From the NCBI GenBank assembly GCA_947627005.1, contig CANQUJ010000011.1, positions 1 through 64,000 on the forward strand: DNA of 64,000 nucleotides. Direction: 5' to 3'. The position numbers and the translations under genes were made by a program. The notes below the pieces were generated by a model. That model did not search any database. It was not told the origin of the DNA and saw only the letters and a list, made by a program, of their open reading frames with translations. Origin of the DNA: an uncultured Clostridia bacterium. Its GTDB lineage: Bacteria; Bacillota; Clostridia; Oscillospirales; Ruminococcaceae. Positions 13,872-56,460 of the stretch are shown here, one piece after another. Positions within the stretch are counted from its first letter, which is position 1, and the number at the start of each line of letters is the position of its first letter.

Positions 13872-14135
13872 TTGACAAACCTTTATCTTTGTGCTATATA
13901 TAATGCAATACTGATAGAGGCGCGGCGCGCCATCAGTAGGCGGGGCATAAAAAGGTATGCCGATACCGTTCCGCCGAAAGGGGCCGCCGCCGAGAACATT
14001 TCGCGGCAAAGAAATGATTCGGCGCAACGGATTAACAGCCTTTGCGCTGTCGCAGTCGATGCGGAGGGCTATCGCAATAATTTCATCTTTATGATGTTGC
14101 TGCGGGGTCTGTTATCAGTCTCCGCGGTTATTTTT
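13872..14135 (+). promoter_or_regulatory. Lysine riboswitch (L-box) with promoter and terminator
   Basis: A TTGACA at 13872-13877 is followed by TATATA/TATAAT at 13895-13904. The leader starts with GATAGAGGCGCG and the conserved CAGTA. It ends with CTGTCG and GGAGGGCTATC, so P1 is GATAG (13913-13917) with CTATC (14069-14073). These are the hallmark L-box segments. After it, GCGGGGTCTG (14102-14111) pairs with CAGTCTCCGC (14116-14125), followed by GGTTATTTTT, an intrinsic terminator. Lysine binding would switch off the dapA-lysA-dapF-dapL operon that begins at 14153. Confidence 0.85.
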
Positions 14136-22568: not shown

Positions 22569-22890
22569 TTGACAAAGCCGCCGCGCGGTGATATAATAAC
22601 GAAAAATTTAAAGGCAACGACGAAGACGGATCGCTTTATTCCGCGCTTTACAGAGAATCGGGGTGGGTGTAAGCCCGATAGGCGCCAAAGCATATCACAT
22701 CACTTCCGAGCCGAAGGTCCGAGCCGCGAAAGCGGAGTAGGCGCCTTCCGCGTCTGCGCGTTACAGCAGAAAGCTTTATATTTTAGAGCTATGAGCGGCG
22801 GGGTTCCCCGCAATTTGAGTGGTACCGCGGGTACATGACAAAGTTGTTATGTCTCGTCTCAAAGAAATTTGAGGCGGGATTTCTTTTATT
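22569..22890 (+). promoter_or_regulatory. T-box leader, Ile (AUC) specifier, with promoter
   Basis: A consensus promoter TTGACA (22569-22574), 17 bases, TATAAT (22592-22597) starts a leader with the T-box hallmarks: AGAGA and GGGTGGGTG in the upper Stem I, a specifier context ACATCACTTCCGAG in which the codon ATC falls at 22699-22701, and the antiterminator sequence TGAGTGGTACCGCGGG (22816-22831). A terminator follows: CTCGTCTCAAA (22853-22863) pairs with TTTGAGGCGGG (22868-22878), then ATTTCTTTTATTT. The same specifier context with TTC is found in the pheS leader of this window, supporting the reading. Uncharged tRNA-Ile would turn on the gene at 22923. Confidence 0.85.
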
Positions 22891-22922
22891 TCAATTATTC
22901 TTTATGACAAAGGGGAGTTTTT

Positions 22923-25199
22923 ATGAGCACTAACACCGCTGAAACCCGACTTTACGAGATGGCGGCGAGGATCCGCGAAATGCGCGAGATCATGGGCTGG
23001 AGCACGGCGGAAATGGCCGAAAAGACCGAAGTTACCGAGGCGGAGTATCTTGAATACGAAAACGCCGAGGCCGACCTTCCGTTTACGTTTATCCACAAAT
23101 GCGCCCTCGCGTTCGAGATCGACCTTACCGACCTTTTAGAGGGTCGGACAGCCGCCCGACTTTCAAGCTATACCTTGACCCGCAAGGGGCAGGGGCAGGT
23201 CACCGCTCGCGAAAAGGGGATAGACATCGCCAACCTTGCGCCGAAGTTTCGCAACAAGATCGCCGAGCCCTATTGGGTAAAATACGAATACAGCGAGGCC
23301 CAGCAGAATATTCCCATCCACCTTACAAAGCACAGCGGGCAGGAGTTCGACATCGTAATCTCGGGCAGCCTTAAGGTTCAGGTAGGAAGCCACATCGAGG
23401 TATTGACCGAGGGGGACAGCATTTATTACAATTCCTCGACCCCTCACGGAATGATCGCCGTCGGCGGAAGCGACTGCGTTTTCGTGGCGGTAGTTCTTCC
23501 GGGCGAAGACGCCGAGGAGGAGACGGTCAGAACCTCGGTAATTCAGGCCAACCGCCCCGAAAAGAACACGCTTTTGTGCGAAAAGTTCGTCGACACCGAA
23601 GAGGACGAGACCGGCAAACTTAAGAGCATAAAATTCAAGAACACCGAAAGCTTTAACTTCGGGTTCGACTGCGTAGACGCCATCGCCGACAAATACCCCG
23701 AAAAGCTCGCGATGGTCCACCTTGACAAACACAAGGTCGAGCGCAGATTTACCTTTAAAGACATCAAGCGCGCCTCGAACCAGACCGCAAACTACTTCAA
23801 ATCCCTCGGGATCAAGAGGGGGGACAGGGTAATGCTCGTATTAAAGAGGCACTACCAGTTCTGGTTCGCGATGACGGCGCTTCACAAGCTCGGCGCGGTG
23901 GCGATCCCCGCGACCAACCAGCTTAAAGAGCACGACTTCGAGTATCGCTTTAACAGCGCGACCGTCTCGGCTATCCTTTGCACCGCCGACGGCGACGTCG
24001 CCGATATCGCCGAGCGCGCGGCCGAAAAATGCCCGAGCGTTAAGACGAAAATTCTCGTCGGCGGCGCGAAAGAGGGTTGGCACGACTTCGACAACGAATA
24101 CCCGCTGTTTACCGGAAAGTTCGAGCGCCCCGAAGACTGCTCTGCGGGCAGCGATATGGCGCTTATGTTCTTCACCTCCGGCACCACCGGCAACCCGAAG
24201 ATGGCCGCCCACGCCCATACATACGCCCTCGGGCACTTTGTCACCGCGAAATACTGGCACTGCTGCGAGCGCGACGGTCTTCACCTTACGATCTCCGACA
24301 CCGGCTGGGGAAAATCCCTTTGGGGCAAGCTGTACGGCCAGTGGCTTTGCGAGGGCGCGGTCTTCGTCTACGACTTCGACAAGTTCGACGCCGCCGATAT
24401 CCTGCCGCTCTTCAAAAAATACAATATAACCACCTTCTGCGCTCCGCCGACTATGCTTAGAATGATGATAAAGGAAGACCTCTCGGTCTACGACCTTTCT
24501 TCTATCCACCATATGACCACCGCGGGCGAGGCGCTTAACCCCGAGGTCGCGAAGCAGTTTAAACAGGCGACCGGGCTTGAAATAATGGAGGGCTTCGGCC
24601 AGACCGAGACCACCCTCGTCATCGGCAACCTCTACGGAGATATTCCGAAATACGGCTCGATGGGCAAGGCCTCGCCGCAGTACGACATCGACATCTTGGA
24701 CCCGGACGGAAATTCCTGCCCGAACGGCGAGGTCGGCGAGATCTGCATAAAAACCTCCGACGAGGTTCCGGTCGGGCTTTACAAAGAATACTACCTTAAC
24801 GAAGAGCTTACCAAAGAGGCTTGGCACGACGGCTACTACCACACCGGCGACACCGCCTGGCGCGATGAAGACGGCTACTTCTGGTATGTCTCGCGGGTCG
24901 ACGACGTCATCAAATCTTCCGGCTACCGAATCGGCCCGTTCGAGATCGAGAGCGTTATCATGGAGCTCCCCTATGTTTTGGAGTGCGGCGTTTCCGCAGT
25001 CCCGGACGAAATCAGAGGGCAAATCGTCAAGGCAAGCATCGTTTTGACCAAGGGAACGGTCGGCACCGACGAGCTTAAAAAAGAAATTCAGAACTACGTC
25101 AAGAGCCACACCGCGCCCTATAAATATCCTCGCGTCATCGCCTTCCGCGACGAGCTCCCGAAGACGATAAGCGGAAAGATCCAGAGGAACAAGCTTTAA
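22923..25199 (+). CDS. HTH-cupin-acyl-CoA synthetase (AMP-forming) fusion
   Basis: 758 residues in three parts. Residues 10-70 form a Cro/CI-type HTH (MAARIREMREIMGWSTAEMAE). About 105-200 is a cupin (HSGQEFDIVISGSLKVQVG, then STPHGMIAVG). From about 235 an adenylate-forming ligase follows: FTSGTTGNPKM near 416, SDTGWGKSLWGKLYGQW near 458, GFGQTETT, YHTGDTAWRDEDGY, and catalytic Lys in KTISGKIQRNKL at the end. The SDTGW motif is typical of medium-chain acyl-CoA synthetases, some of which favour butyrate, isobutyrate or 2-methylbutyrate. The T-box leader and the downstream Vor and ilvE genes suggest activation of branched short-chain acids. Substrate is inferred. Confidence 0.85.
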   Translation: MSTNTAETRLYEMAARIREMREIMGWSTAEMAEKTEVTEAEYLEYENAEADLPFTFIHKCALAFEIDLTDLLEGRTAARLSSYTLTRKGQGQVTAREKGIDIANLAPKFRNKIAEPYWVKYEYSEAQQNIPIHLTKHSGQEFDIVISGSLKVQVGSHIEVLTEGDSIYYNSSTPHGMIAVGGSDCVFVAVVLPGEDAEEETVRTSVIQANRPEKNTLLCEKFVDTEEDETGKLKSIKFKNTESFNFGFDCVDAIADKYPEKLAMVHLDKHKVERRFTFKDIKRASNQTANYFKSLGIKRGDRVMLVLKRHYQFWFAMTALHKLGAVAIPATNQLKEHDFEYRFNSATVSAILCTADGDVADIAERAAEKCPSVKTKILVGGAKEGWHDFDNEYPLFTGKFERPEDCSAGSDMALMFFTSGTTGNPKMAAHAHTYALGHFVTAKYWHCCERDGLHLTISDTGWGKSLWGKLYGQWLCEGAVFVYDFDKFDAADILPLFKKYNITTFCAPPTMLRMMIKEDLSVYDLSSIHHMTTAGEALNPEVAKQFKQATGLEIMEGFGQTETTLVIGNLYGDIPKYGSMGKASPQYDIDILDPDGNSCPNGEVGEICIKTSDEVPVGLYKEYYLNEELTKEAWHDGYYHTGDTAWRDEDGYFWYVSRVDDVIKSSGYRIGPFEIESVIMELPYVLECGVSAVPDEIRGQIVKASIVLTKGTVGTDELKKEIQNYVKSHTAPYKYPRVIAFRDELPKTISGKIQRNKL

Positions 25200-25687
25200 T
25201 GAATGCGATCCTGAGATATGCCTGTCCCGAGGACGCCGAGGCGGTCGGAAGGCTTCACTACACCTGCTGGCAGGAGACCTACCGGGGTCTTCTGCCCGAC
25301 GGCTATCTTGACAAAATGAGCCCCGAAAGGAGCGCGAAGATATTTCGCTCGACCGGCTGCCGCAACCTCATCGTCGCGATATGCGGCGGCGAGATAATCG
25401 GCGAATGCGGATTCGGCGCCTCGCGCGACGCGGATCTTGAAAACTGCGGCGAGATCCAGGGAATATATGTCCTGAAAAAATATCAGCGCCAAGGTATCGG
25501 CAGAAGGTTGATGTCGCTTTCTCTTGACAGGTTAAAATCCTACGGGTATGCTAAGGCGTGTCTTTGGGTGCTTAAAAGCAACGAAAATGCCAAGGAATTT
25601 TACCGTTCGGCAGGATTTTCGCCAGACGGCGCAGAAAAGGCGGTTCCGTTCAACGAGATAAGATATATAACCGATATCGAGAGGTGA
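25199..25687 (+). CDS. GNAT family N-acetyltransferase
   Basis: 162 residues with the acetyl-CoA binding motif A as YVLKKYQRQGIGRRLM and a following LWVLKSNENAKEFYRSAGF segment typical of GNAT proteins. The TAATG overlap with the ligase indicates coupled translation. Its acceptor is unknown; it might modify a protein of the cluster or simply hitch-hike. Confidence 0.85.
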   Translation: MNAILRYACPEDAEAVGRLHYTCWQETYRGLLPDGYLDKMSPERSAKIFRSTGCRNLIVAICGGEIIGECGFGASRDADLENCGEIQGIYVLKKYQRQGIGRRLMSLSLDRLKSYGYAKACLWVLKSNENAKEFYRSAGFSPDGAEKAVPFNEIRYITDIER

Positions 25688-25689
25688 AT

Positions 25690-26346
25690 ATGCACAGGGT
25701 AACTCTTTTCGCCGGGCATTACGGAAGCGGGAAGACCAATCTTGCGGTAAACTGGGCGATTATGCTTAAAAAAGAGCATGAGCGCGTGGTAATCGCCGAC
25801 CTCGACATCGTGAACCCCTATTTCAGAACCAAAGACTCCGCCGAGCTCCTCGAAAAAAGCGGGATAGAAGTGGTCTCGCCGGAATTTGCGAACTCTAACG
25901 TCGACCTTCCCGCCCTGCCGTCAGAGCTTTACGGAGTTGTTCAGCAGCGGGGAAGATTCGCGGTTTTGGATATCGGCGGCGACGACCGGGGGGCCTATGC
26001 CCTCGGAAGATTCGCGCCCTATATCCTTGAAGAAAACGACTACGAGATGATCTTCGTCGCTAACTTTATGAGGCCGCTCACCCGAACCCCCGAGGAAGCG
26101 CTTGAGGTTATGAGAGAGATCGAGGCCGCCGGGGGTATCCCATTTACCGCCATCGCGAACAACACCAATCTTTCAAAGCTCACCGACGAAGCGGTAATCC
26201 GCGAGGGGGAGGAAAAATCCGCCGAGCTTTCAAGACTTTGCGGGCTGCCGGTTTTGTTCACATCGGTCGAAAAAAATCTCGCCCGGGGGCTTGATTTAGA
26301 CGGCGTTTTGCCGATAGAATTGCAGAAGAAATACTATGATTTATAA
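25690..26346 (+). CDS. ParA/MinD-like P-loop ATPase of the Vor/Kor cluster
   Basis: 218 residues. The Walker A variant is GHYGSGKTN, followed by VIADLDIVNPYFRT and VLDIGGDDRGAYAL. Proteins of this type often precede 2-oxoacid:ferredoxin oxidoreductase genes in Clostridia (recalled association); the role is not established. The start at ATG 25690 is supported by GAGAGG; a GTG at 25684 lies on that site. It overlaps nothing but follows the GNAT stop by two bases. Confidence 0.75.
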   Translation: MHRVTLFAGHYGSGKTNLAVNWAIMLKKEHERVVIADLDIVNPYFRTKDSAELLEKSGIEVVSPEFANSNVDLPALPSELYGVVQQRGRFAVLDIGGDDRGAYALGRFAPYILEENDYEMIFVANFMRPLTRTPEEALEVMREIEAAGGIPFTAIANNTNLSKLTDEAVIREGEEKSAELSRLCGLPVLFTSVEKNLARGLDLDGVLPIELQKKYYDL

Positions 26347-26362
26347 AAACGGAGGTTGATTT

Positions 26363-26572
26363 ATGGCCAAGATCACATTCGCGACCGATATTTGTAAGGG
26401 CTGCGGGCTTTGCGTAAACGCCTGCCCGAGAAAGCTTATCGTTCTCGCAAAAGACAAAATCAACAAAAAGGGCCATTCGCCCGCCGAGATAACCGACCAA
26501 TCAAAGTGCATCGGCTGCGCCTGCTGCGCGGTTATGTGCCCCGACTGCGTTATCACGGTCGAAAAAGACTGA
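26363..26572 (+). CDS. vorD: Ferredoxin subunit of 2-oxoacid:ferredoxin oxidoreductase
   Basis: 69 residues with two [4Fe-4S] motifs, CKGCGLCVNACP and CIGCACCAVMCPDC. It passes electrons between the TPP/CoA site and free ferredoxin. It is the first of the D-A-B-C subunit genes. GGAGG precedes the ATG. Confidence 0.9.
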   Translation: MAKITFATDICKGCGLCVNACPRKLIVLAKDKINKKGHSPAEITDQSKCIGCACCAVMCPDCVITVEKD

Positions 26573-26585
26573 AAGGGGAGATATT

Positions 26586-27647
26586 ATGGCAAAGGTTTTG
26601 ATGAAGGGCAACGAGGCGATCGCCGAAGCCGCGATCCGCTCGGGCTGCCGCCACTATTTCGGATACCCGATAACCCCGCAGACCGAAGTCGCCGCCTATA
26701 TGGCGAAGAGAATGCCGAAGATAGGCGGAACCTTTTTGCAGGCAGAGAGCGAAATTTCCGCGATCAATATGGTCTACGGCGTTTCGTCGGCCGGGCTTAG
26801 GGTCATGACTTCTTCCTCGAGCCCCGGAGTTTCTCTTAAGCAAGAGGGGATATCCTACCTCGCGGGGTCGGATCTTCCGGCGCTTATCGTAAACGTACAG
26901 AGGGGCGGCCCCGGCCTCGGCGGAATACAGCCCTCGCAGTCGGATTACTTCCAGGCGACAAAGGGCGGCGGCCACGGCGACTATCACCTTATCGTTCTTG
27001 CGCCGGCCTCGGTTCAAGAGATGGCCGACCTTACCGCCAAGGCGTTCGACCTTTCGGACAAATACAGAATGCCCGCGATGCTTCTTGCCGACGGCACCAT
27101 CGGCCAGATGATGGAGCCGGTGGAATTGCCCGAAAAGATGAGCGAGGGCGGATTTGAAAAGCCCTGGGCGGTCACCGGGACCGAAAACAAGCGGGAGCAC
27201 AACATAATCAACTCGCTCTATCTCGTCCCCGAGCAGCTTGAAGACAAAAACCTCGAAAGATACGAAAGATACAAAGTAGTCGAGCAAAACGAGGTTATGT
27301 ACGAGGAATATATGACCGACGACGCCGACGTTGTAGTCGTCGCGTTCGGGATAGCGGCGAGGGTCTCTAAAAACGCGATTACCGCCGCGAGGGCGAAGGG
27401 GATAAAAGCCGGGCTTATCAGGCCGATAACCCTTTGGCCTTTCCCGAAAGAGGCGATAGCAAAGGCCGCCGAAAGGGCGAAGGGCTTTATTTCGGTAGAG
27501 CTCTCGATGGGCCAGATGATAGACGATATCCGCCTCGCCGAGGGCTGCAAAAAGCCGGTAACGCTTTGCAACAGGGTCGGCGGAATGATACCCTCGCCGG
27601 ACGAGGTTCTTAAAGCTATTGAAGACATGGAAGGAGGCGCTTTCTGA
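26586..27647 (+). CDS. 2-oxoacid:ferredoxin oxidoreductase alpha subunit, VorB/KorA type
   Basis: 353 residues. [50 protein letters not shown] and [18 protein letters not shown] match the subunit commonly annotated as the 3-methyl-2-oxobutanoate (2-ketoisovalerate) oxidoreductase VorB rather than pyruvate enzymes. The reaction is reversible: oxidative CoA-acylation of branched 2-oxo acids or, with reduced ferredoxin, reductive carboxylation of branched acyl-CoA. Direction is inferred from the T-box context as anabolic. Confidence 0.88.
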
Positions 27648-27648
27648 T

Positions 27649-28404
27649 ATGGCGACAGTATTTTCAAAGCCCAAGGCGCTTACCGACGCGCCGCTCCACT
27701 ATTGCCCGGGCTGCACCCACGGCATTATCCACCGCCTTGTCGCCGAGGCTATCGACGATTTGGGCATACTCGGCAAAACCGTCGGCGTTGCGCCGGTGGG
27801 CTGCGCGGTTATGGCCTATGACTACTTCTCCTGCGATATGGTAGAGGCCGCCCACGGAAGGGCCCCCGCCGTCGCGACCGGCCTTAAAAGGGCAATGCCG
27901 GACAGGATTATCTTCACATACCAGGGCGACGGCGACCTTGCCTCTATCGGCATGGCAGAGACTGTTCATGCCGCGACGAGAAACGAAAACATCACCGTTA
28001 TTTTCGTGAACAACGCGATCTACGGAATGACCGGCGGCCAGATGGCGCCGACCTCTTTGCCGGGGCAGGTCACGCAGACTTCGCCCTACGGCCGCGACGT
28101 CAAAACCGTCGGCTACCCGATAAGGGTCTGCGAGCTGCTTTCGGCTCTCGATGCGCCGGAATATATCGAAAGGGTCGCGGTAAACAACGTCAAAAACGTC
28201 TTAAACGCGAAAAGGGCGATCAAAAAGGCGTTCCAAAACCAGATCGAGGGCAAGGGCTTCTCGCTTATAGAGGTCGTCTCAAGCTGCCCGACAAACTGGG
28301 GAATGACCCCGCAAAAGGCGCTCGACTGGGTCGAGAGCGATATGATTCCCTATTATCCTCTCGGCGTCTATCGCGATAAATCGGCGAAGGAGGGCAAAGA
28401 ATAA
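27649..28404 (+). CDS. 2-oxoacid:ferredoxin oxidoreductase beta subunit (TPP-binding)
   Basis: 251 residues with the TPP motif [12 protein letters not shown]...[11 protein letters not shown] and Cys residues for the proximal [4Fe-4S] cluster (YCPGCTHG and further Cys). The ATG at 27649 follows the alpha stop directly, with AGGAGG upstream; longer in-frame readings lie inside the alpha gene. Confidence 0.92.
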
Positions 28405-28940
28405 TGTATACGCAGATTCTCATCGCCGGCTTCGGCGGGCAGGGCGTATTGTTCGCCGGAAAGGTTTTGGCCTATAAGGGCCTTACCGAAGAAAAACAGA
28501 TAAGCTGGCTGCCCTCATACGGCCCCGAAATGCGCGGCGGAACCGCCAACTGCTCGGTCATAGTAAGCGATACCCCGGTCGGCTCGCCGATAGTTCACGA
28601 GCCGGATATCCTCATCGTCATGAACCTTCCGTCGCTCGACAAATACGAGGGCGCGGTATCAAAGGGCGGCTACGCTTTCGTCGATTCCACCCTTATCGAA
28701 AGAAAGCTCGAAAGAACCGACGTCAAGGCGTTTTATATTCCCGCGACCAAGATGGCGCGCGACCTCGGAATCCCCACCCTTGCGAATATGATAATCGTCG
28801 GAAAGGTCATAAAAGAGACCGGCGTGGTGAGCATGGACGGCCTTAGAGACGCTTTGGCGAAGACGGTTTCGGCCAAGCACCAAGACCTTATCGACATCAA
28901 CCTTAAGGCCATCGAGGCGGGGTATAATTTTAAAGACTGA
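28404..28940 (+). CDS. 2-oxoacid:ferredoxin oxidoreductase gamma subunit
   Basis: 178 residues: ILIAGFGGQGVLFAGKVLAY at the start and LPSYGPEMRGGTANCSVIVS are diagnostic for the gamma (CoA-handling) subunit. Its ATG overlaps the beta stop (TAATG). It completes the DABC set. The operon probably ends here, since ilvE has a promoter of its own. Confidence 0.93.
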   Translation: MYTQILIAGFGGQGVLFAGKVLAYKGLTEEKQISWLPSYGPEMRGGTANCSVIVSDTPVGSPIVHEPDILIVMNLPSLDKYEGAVSKGGYAFVDSTLIERKLERTDVKAFYIPATKMARDLGIPTLANMIIVGKVIKETGVVSMDGLRDALAKTVSAKHQDLIDINLKAIEAGYNFKD

Positions 28941-28957
28941 TTTTTTCAGTTAAAGTA

Positions 28958-28986
28958 TTGCATTGTCGCGAAAACGGTATTATAAT
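28958..28986 (+). promoter_or_regulatory. Promoter of ilvE
   Basis: TTGCAT (28958-28963), 17-base spacer, TATAAT (28981-28986), 33 bases before the ATG. Confidence 0.65.
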
Positions 28987-29018
28987 ATTCAAAACCGATT
29001 TTTTCAGGAGGCATAATT

Positions 29019-30086
29019 ATGCTTGACATTAAAATTCAGAAGACTACTTCTCCCAAGAAGATCCCCCAGAAGGGCGAGCCCCTCGGATTCGGGCACATTT
29101 TCACCGACCACATGTTCATTATGAACTATACCGAGGGCAAGGGCTGGCACGACCCGCGCGTTGTCCCCTTCGGGGATATAACCCTAAGCCCCGCGGCGAT
29201 GGTCCTTCACTACGGGCAGGAGATGTTTGAGGGCCTAAAGGCTTATCGCGGCGCTAACGGAGAGATTTATCTCTTCAGGCCGGATATGAACGCCAAGCGC
29301 GCGAACAACTCGAACACAAGGCTCTGCATACCCCACATTCCCGAAGAGGATTTCGTTCAGGCGATAAAAACCGTAGTCGACGTAGACCGCGACTGGGTTC
29401 CGTATGAAGAGGGAACTTCTCTCTACATTCGGCCGTTCGTGATCTCTACCGACCCGCATTTAGGCGTCGCCCCCTCTAAGACCTATATGTTCATAATCAT
29501 TCTCTCCCCCTCCGGGGCGTACTATGAAAGCGGCCTCGCGCCGGTCGGAATTTGGATAGAGGACGAATACGTCAGAGCGGTTCGCGGAGGAATGGGCTTC
29601 GCGAAAACCGGCGGAAACTACGCCGCCTCCCTTGCGGCGCAGGTCAAGGCCCACGACAGCGGCTATTCTCAGGCCCTTTGGCTCGACGGAGTCGAGAGAA
29701 AATATATCGAGGAAGTCGGCTCGATGAACATCATGTTCAAGATCAACGGCAAGGTCGTCACCCCGATGTTAAACGGCTCTATCCTTCCGGGCATCACCCG
29801 CGACTCGATTATCCACCTCTGCCGCGAGTGGGGATATGAAGTCGAAGAGAGAAGAATTTCGGTCGACGAGCTTGTTGCTGCGGCCCATTCGGGCGAGCTC
29901 GAAGAAGTCTTCGGGACCGGCACCGCGGCGGTCGTTTCGCCGGTCGGAAAGCTTAGATATAAAGACGACGTTATCGAGATCGGCGGCGGAAAGATCGGCG
30001 AGCTGACCCAAAAGCTCTACGACGAGCTGACCGGTATCCAGTGGGGCAAAAGGCCCGACCCCTACGGATGGAGAGTCACCGTTTGA
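29019..30086 (+). CDS. ilvE: Branched-chain amino acid aminotransferase
   Basis: 355 residues of the larger (type II) fold-type IV aminotransferase. Seen are HYGQEMFEGLKAYR, RPFVISTDPHLGV, the PLP Lys in GGMGFAKTGGNYAAS, and EEVFGTGTAAVVSPVG. It interconverts 2-oxo-3-methylvalerate, 2-oxoisovalerate and 4-methyl-2-oxopentanoate with Ile, Val and Leu. Lying directly after the Vor cluster, it supplies the last step of the proposed fatty-acid-to-amino-acid route. AGGAGG precedes ATG 29019. Confidence 0.95.
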   Translation: MLDIKIQKTTSPKKIPQKGEPLGFGHIFTDHMFIMNYTEGKGWHDPRVVPFGDITLSPAAMVLHYGQEMFEGLKAYRGANGEIYLFRPDMNAKRANNSNTRLCIPHIPEEDFVQAIKTVVDVDRDWVPYEEGTSLYIRPFVISTDPHLGVAPSKTYMFIIILSPSGAYYESGLAPVGIWIEDEYVRAVRGGMGFAKTGGNYAASLAAQVKAHDSGYSQALWLDGVERKYIEEVGSMNIMFKINGKVVTPMLNGSILPGITRDSIIHLCREWGYEVEERRISVDELVAAAHSGELEEVFGTGTAAVVSPVGKLRYKDDVIEIGGGKIGELTQKLYDELTGIQWGKRPDPYGWRVTV

Positions 30087-56189: not shown

Positions 56190-56460
56190 AATTATCGAAA
56201 AAATGTGTTAGAATAACTTTTAATATCAAACGCAAAGACTGAGAGAGTAAGCCGCAAGGGATTATAGAGAGGGGCTGCATGAGCTGAAACGGCCCTATTT
56301 CCGACCGGCCGAAGTTCACTCACGAGCGGTTCCGCTGAAGCTTTTTGTTGTAGGCGGAAACGCACCCGCGGCGTTATCGCGGAGGAAGTGTCTGCTTCCG
56401 CAGGGTGGTTTATAAGCATAGCTTAAAGTTATGTCCCGGTTTCGGGGCATTTTTGTTTGA
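56186..56460 (+). promoter_or_regulatory. T-box leader of pheST, Phe (UUC) specifier, with promoter
   Basis: Promoter TTGAAA (56186-56191), 17 bases, TAGAAT (56209-56214). The specifier context GAAGTTCACTCACGAG gives TTC (Phe) at 56315-56317. The T-box sequence is CAGGGTGGTTTA (56401-56412), less canonical than the usual form. A terminator follows: ATGTCCCGG/CGGGGCAT with TTTTTG (about 56431-56455). Uncharged tRNA-Phe would raise pheST expression. Confidence 0.85.

Follow-up and report, generated by a model that had tools for sequence, protein, structure and literature searches.

The systems closest to the locus described here are known from separate lines of work. T-box leaders (RF00230) switch genes on when the sensed tRNA is uncharged, as stated in the accessible part of PMC7778990, and synthetases, biosynthesis and transport genes are the targets named in the available sections of a survey of T-boxes (PMC2494555) and a list compiled for C. 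difficile (PMC11477304). Since the 1960s it has been known that branched volatile acids serve rumen anaerobes as precursors of Ile, Val and Leu (PMC2812497 and PMC7356843, citing Robinson and Allison 1969). For the medium-chain acyl-CoA synthetase of M. acetivorans (MacsMa, PDB 3ETC), the accessible text of PMC10455477 describes a critical Trp259 and a preference for 2-methylbutyrate. We analysed a 64,000-nucleotide stretch (the window) of contig CANQUJ010000011.1 from an uncultured Clostridia bacterium (Ruminococcaceae), in which a T-box leader precedes an operon encoding an acyl-CoA ligase, a 2-oxoacid:ferredoxin oxidoreductase (Vor) and a branched-chain aminotransferase. Very probably these genes form an Ile salvage operon under the control of a transcriptional tRNA-Ile T-box, where substrates, direction of Vor and switching in the cell are what we infer from the sequence.

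The T-box, promoter, terminator and eight-gene cluster are confirmed as described. A first-pass annotation had named a canonical promoter, a T-box leader with an AUC specifier, and a set of ligase, GNAT, ParA-like ATPase, Vor and ilvE genes, and each of these was recovered, some subunits with matches below cut-off. The controlling region comprises the following elements.

22569–22597, + strand: sigma-70 type promoter TTGACA-17-TATAAT with 12/12 consensus matches (TTGACA 22569–22574, 17 nt spacer, TATAAT 22592–22597)
22608–22864, + strand: T-box leader, class Ile (RF00230; the same gene is preceded by a leader in relatives)
22699–22701, + strand: specifier codon AUC (Ile), then A and CUUCCGAGC (alignment column, controlled by other T-boxes of the genome)
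22819–22829, + strand: T-box core GUGGUACCGCG (antiterminator), from the sequence
22851–22880, + strand: intrinsic terminator hairpin of 13 pairs, then TTCTTTTATT (terminator scan, folding, RF00230 alignment)

The RF00230 match spans the full model (1–219) with an E value of 1.7e-16 in a 601-base search and 1.4e-16 when the whole genome is searched, though its score lies below the gathering score. In the RF00230 alignment the 5' arm of the terminator and the antiterminator's 3' arm occupy overlapping positions. The stretch 22823–22885 has a folding z of -4.46; the energy of a second folding window, 22783–22850, is not unusual (z -0.46), and the terminator scan found no excess of sites over shuffles (10 vs 11.5).

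The specifier was defined as the codon one base 5' of the 3' strand of the Stem I base helix. Every reading is based on this alignment column, for which nine other T-boxes of the genome served as controls. Six agree with their genes (tyrS UAC, cysE-cysS UGC, leuA CUC, alaS GCU, valS GUC and pheS UUC). The hisS leader aligned to GAC (Asp), which would fit only with aspS downstream of it. The trpE and thrS controls were misaligned, and their UGG and ACC were read by eye only, thrS with a one-base shift. The distance from specifier to AGAGA is 41–49 nt in the seven controls that aligned. Picking the specifier by base-pair score yielded many false candidates, with a correct top pick in 6/9 controls, and ranked AUC second for the window leader, the first rank going to a candidate 125 nt away from AGAGA; picking by distance likewise gave many false candidates and was replaced by the alignment column. 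The AUC thus read agrees with the Ile-making pathway predicted from the genes. The window carries a second T-box (56226–56454), before pheS (UUC, Phe).

Downstream of the leader the operon is arranged as listed here; gene families were named with Pfam and NCBIfam models, and the vor gene names rest on family models.

22923–25199, + strand: fusion of helix-turn-helix (HTH), cupin and AMP-forming acyl-CoA ligase, predicted 2-methylbutyrate–CoA ligase (Pfam, identity to MacsMa, Ile specifier and Gly463)
25199–25687, + strand: GNAT acetyltransferase (Pfam)
25684–26346, + strand: ParA/CbiA-like P-loop NTPase (CbiA model, below cut-off)
26363–26572, + strand: vorD, ferredoxin-like 4Fe-4S subunit (family models; NCBIfam delta-subunit models below cut-off)
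26586–27647, + strand: vorB (NF005507, 562.5 bits, above the cut-off of 399)
27649–28404, + strand: vorA, thiamine pyrophosphate (TPP)-binding subunit (Pfam TPP_enzyme_C over cut-off)
28404–28940, + strand: vorC, gamma subunit (Pfam POR over cut-off)
28958–28986, + strand: weak promoter-like TTGCAT-17-TATAAT before ilvE (3/6 and 6/6; seen by eye, absent from the promoter scan list)
29019–30086, + strand: ilvE, branched-chain aminotransferase (TIGR01123, 417.7 bits, above the cut-off of 250)

NCBIfam subunit models for vorD, vorA and vorC all score under their cut-offs. Within the ligase, the Pfam domains Cupin_2 and AMP-binding are over cut-off and HTH is just below. The GNAT gene lies outside the conserved core, being matched among loci L031–L129 only in L038 (genome G044). 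The HTH-cupin part fused to the ligase may provide a second, acid-sensing input, the ParA/CbiA-like NTPase perhaps serves cofactor insertion for Vor, and the promoter-like site before ilvE could partially uncouple this gene from the T-box.

We propose that uncharged tRNA-Ile would pair with the AUC codon and stabilise the antiterminator, and that the operon would then be transcribed. The ligase, spending ATP, would convert 2-methylbutyrate to 2-methylbutyryl-CoA, which VorDBAC would turn into 3-methyl-2-oxopentanoate with reduced ferredoxin and CO2; IlvE would transaminate this product to Ile. Ile would recharge tRNA-Ile, and the operon would be shut off. In a sibling system read by Val leaders, isobutyrate would give Val, and Leu would be drawn from the Val 2-oxoacid. 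Since starvation offers no gain from oxidising the Ile 2-oxoacid and the ligase, AMP-forming by family, spends ATP, the Ile-making direction is most likely. Synthesis of Ile from 2-methylbutyrate is hence the most likely function of this operon, and synthesis of Val from isobutyrate that of its sibling. Conservation in many genera supports the anabolic direction under T-box control that the first-pass annotation had suggested, and the direction itself stays a prediction.

This conservation was followed in 148 genomes of the family, including that of the window (2.07 Mb, 48 contigs, 99.27% complete; the window lies on contig C11). The ligase was found in 94 of them (E up to 1e-100). We fetched 99 loci, namely 19 from relatives (L031–L049) and the 80 that ranked best among at least 589 named loci, many of which are placed in ruminant guts by their titles; the loci and leaders counted are kin sequences and not independent. 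Among their 153 ligase matches, 125 are preceded by a T-box core at a distance of at most 650 nt. Together with one leader found by eye and that of the window, 127 leaders were aligned; four more Val leaders (L060, L079, L085, L088) stand outside this set, their second ligase copies being broken or cut by contig ends. The specifier is Ile (AUC) in 84, Val (GUA or GUC) in 41 and unreadable in two: L054 at a contig end, and L112_6559, misaligned with a spurious Cys codon and labelled Val in the tree below by the base-pair scoring rule. Where a locus has two leaders (n = 37), the order is Ile then Val in 36 and Ile then unreadable (misaligned) in one; the 52 one-leader loci comprise 46 Ile, five Val and one unreadable. 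When 11 loci were rechecked with the Rfam model, ten gave together 16 T-box matches, 15 of them before ligases, and among the matches listed for the relatives' genomes the model also confirms leaders at ligases. Sixty further loci, taken from those places in which only the ligase part was matched, showed a T-box core within 900 nt in 24 cases (16 Ile, 3 Val, 5 unreadable) and none by the pattern used in 36. In most of the 16 Ile cases core and ligase are 640–810 nt apart, which leaves room for a separate HTH-cupin gene. In L090, L093, L100, L102 and L110 the first HTH-cupin-ligase shows no separate T-box and directly follows what appears by eye to be the end of another AMP-forming ligase.

Across the 80 named loci, lig-lig-parA-vorDBAC-ilvE is the most frequent gene order (23), followed by a solitary lig (20) and by lig-lig-ilvE-parA-vorDBAC (11); less than 5 kb follow the ligase in 15 of the 20 loci with a solitary lig. 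On the same strand, vorB is present in 52/80. The ParA/CbiA-like NTPase adjoins vorDBAC in relatives too. A third codon appears in these loci before a diverged LeuA-like gene, 19 of 34 such genes being preceded by a Leu T-box.

Leu (CUC or CUG) T-box before a diverged LeuA-like gene: L031, L056, L072, L075, L078, L083, L098, L099, L107, L111
The same, continued: L114, L115, L118, L119, L120, L123, L124, L125, L127

All three codons are found in genome G105, in the order Ile T-box, ligase, Val T-box, ligase, parA-vorDBAC, Leu T-box, LeuA-like gene, the LeuA-like protein scoring under the LeuA cut-offs.

The specifier follows the ligase phylogeny. In a quick tree of 148 ligase rows (84 labelled Ile, 40 labelled Val, 24 without label), the labels require one change, with a support of 100 (shuffled mean 34, 0/500). 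The Val class looks derived, as those labelled rows that fall outside both big clades carry the Ile label. At position 463, Gly is found in 83/84 Ile rows (Ala in L065) and Ala in 40/40 Val rows; residue 466 is mostly Leu in the Ile class vs Met or Ala in the Val class, and further class-separating columns lie mostly within the HTH-cupin part. Four residues after position 463, W467 is kept in 148/148 rows. It corresponds to Trp259 of MacsMa if YHTGD 431–435 of the published numbering is matched to chain positions 454–458. MacsMa also has Gly at the position equivalent to 463, and the window ligase is identical to it in 279 of 539 aligned residues (52%); thus it has both the acyl-pocket Trp and the kinship to MacsMa. 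Outside this set, in each of L189, L190 and L192 a Val T-box precedes a more distant ligase (45% identity) whose HTH-cupin part is unmatched. These three Val-labelled ligases have Ala463, and they perhaps represent a separate origin of the Val class.

No ligase leader read Leu, Phe or Trp, either among the 127 aligned leaders or in the sixty further loci; isovalerate is therefore without a ligase class here. We infer that the window ligase belongs to the Ile class with 2-methylbutyrate as its predicted substrate, isobutyrate going with the Val class. From the three acids considered in the first-pass annotation, 2-methylbutyrate is thus retained; isobutyrate is dropped, given the separate Val class and the single ligase match (E 1e-100) in the genome, and so is isovalerate in view of the missing Leu leader.

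Genomes with a T-box ligase more often lack ilvC. At E 1e-30, ilvC is absent from 23/33 genomes with a T-box ligase vs 35/115 others (Fisher p 8e-5, kinship ignored), where G011 is taken as present on a partial match below cut-off and the 115 include genomes without fetched upstream DNA. The 33 were identified via the loci fetched first (15), via T-box position alone (G129 and G114) and via the sixty further loci (16). In a set of 26 ligase genomes, ilvC over cut-off is absent from 14. All five genomes in which a Val T-box ligase was read (G105, G037, G066, G140, G060) have no ilvC match at E 1e-30, G037 being 84% complete. IlvD (PF00920) is matched in 15/33 T-box-ligase genomes, a check on ilvC loss that is blurred by other dehydratases included in PF00920. 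Among the 23 genomes lacking ilvC, 17 also lack an IlvD match and six have one, five of these (G105, G066, G129, G100, G084) with lower scores; conversely, G073 has ilvC and no IlvD match.

For the window genome itself, absence of ilvA or ilvC was considered and rejected: ilvA (TIGR01127, 497 bits), ilvC, ilvD and leuA are all kept. leuA and ilvD share a strand and a span of about 10 kb that follows a Leu T-box, the intervening genes being identified by eye. No citramalate synthase (cimA) was recognised among its three HMGL-family proteins. The check for missing ilvA or cimA raised in the first-pass annotation thus came out against sole dependence on the salvage route. By gene content this bacterium is not a branched-chain amino acid auxotroph, and since ilvA and ilvC are kept, the salvage route would be parallel, not sole. 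The sister genome G044 has ilvC and no ilvA match at E 1e-60.

Taken across the genera, we consider it likely that an Ile/Val/Leu three-codon T-box regulon adjusts the salvage of branched acids by Clostridia of gut and rumen, that the specifier labels the ligase substrate, and that salvage replaces lost de novo synthesis (no ilvC) in many genera. It is part of this likely reading that, with two T-boxes in one operon, the tRNA of the product amino acid controls the matching ligase paralogue.

Several observations weigh against these interpretations. The window leader, at 75.3 bits, is below the Rfam gathering score of 93, which is why it went undetected when the window was scanned with default settings; 7/10 T-box matches of the genome score under 93 (ligase, leuA, alaS, valS, pheS, trpE and thrS leaders), and at homologous fused ligases leader scores go up to 111.8 bits (G096) and 103.8 bits (L061). 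No T-box core was found by the pattern used for 28/153 ligase matches, which comprise contig ends, close second copies, split matches, one mismatched core (L039, read Ile) and seemingly true absences (L032, L044). A vor cluster beside each T-box ligase is rejected by the gene orders: five of the 28 named loci without vorB have at least 5 kb after the last ligase (L057, L058, L101, L104, L116), and most fused ligases in L033–L049 are likewise without vor. VorB is matched in 24/26 ligase genomes, G048 and G100 being without a match. Ala463 also occurs in several ligases without any T-box; therefore this residue alone is no proof of Val. With ilvA, ilvC and ilvD in the window genome, Ile need not depend on the ligase-Vor route, and G078, one of the genomes without ilvC, has a strong IlvD match. 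Finally, the best NCBIfam model for the ligase is MbcS (NF047394), with 443.8 bits below its cut-off of 850.

MbcS has a role in Listeria lipids. The last point could accordingly mean that Ile scarcity induces, via the T-box, an MbcS-like ligase that scavenges 2-methylbutyrate for anteiso membrane fatty acids, with Vor as a bystander. The five named loci with ample sequence past the ligase and no vor would suit this explanation; the presence of Vor, often with ilvE, in the cluster at 52/80 loci does not, Val leaders and Leu leaders before the LeuA-like gene suggest amino acids, and ilvC is missing more often where T-box ligases occur. We regard a lipid function as quite unlikely.

More improbable still is a catabolic operon, in which Vor would form 2-methylbutyryl-CoA by oxidation of the Ile 2-oxoacid, with the ligase running in reverse or acting on another acid. 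2-Oxoacid:ferredoxin oxidoreductases do act so in Clostridium sporogenes and gut acetogens, according to the accessible part of PMC13290082, where catabolic loci of gut acetogens often include phosphate butyryltransferase and butyrate kinase as ATP-forming partners. Pfam and NCBIfam models detect neither kinase nor phosphotransacylase among the eight genes of the operon, and a T-box induces its genes in Ile starvation, when breakdown would be harmful. That aryl or straight-chain acids are the substrates of ligase and Vor, the Ile leader being incidental, has the lowest probability of the three: the first half-reaction of MacsMa does activate C3 to C8 acids (available text of PMC10455477), but the specifier follows the ligase clade in 124/124 labelled rows and residue 463 in 123/124. 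T-box-controlled Ile salvage stays the preferred explanation.

Elsewhere in the window, a lysine riboswitch (13907–14079, 87 bits) precedes a dapA-like open reading frame (by eye); a lysA-like decarboxylase, dapF and an aminotransferase come next, the whole being a lysine operon of the usual kind.

A gene set for branched-acid salvage with its own amino-acid sensor is now concrete and testable, and the range of T-box-controlled genes is widened. The sequence would predict whether a ligase takes 2-methylbutyrate or isobutyrate. Genomes without ilvC that contain the ligases point to uncultured gut bacteria that may rely on isoacids obtained by cross-feeding. Ruminants receive isoacids in their feed; if the regulon exists as proposed, the need of rumen bacteria for isoacids has its candidate genes in these loci.

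Compared with T-box leaders of the transcriptional class, the window leader likewise has Stem I, specifier, T-box core and terminator, whereas its target differs, being an acyl-CoA ligase and 2-oxoacid oxidoreductase operon. In line with the remark of the first-pass annotation that such control is not standard, no T-box control of such ligase/Vor genes was found in print, within a partial coverage of the literature that leaves aside subscription papers and TBDB tables. The ligase, 52% identical to MacsMa with the Trp259 equivalent and Gly463 kept, differs from it by the N-terminal HTH-cupin fusion and T-box control. MbcS is of the same superfamily and acts on branched short acids; it differs by its lipid role, and the window ligase reaches only 444 of 850 bits. 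As in the four-subunit Vor family of VorB PRK07119 (NF005507), the window has four subunits with VorB over cut-off, its version being predicted to run synthetically and adjoined by a ParA-like NTPase. The net chemistry proposed is that of the reductive carboxylation of branched volatile acids in the rumen. Thus the chemistry is classical, and the tRNA-sensing control of the gene set appears to be the new part.

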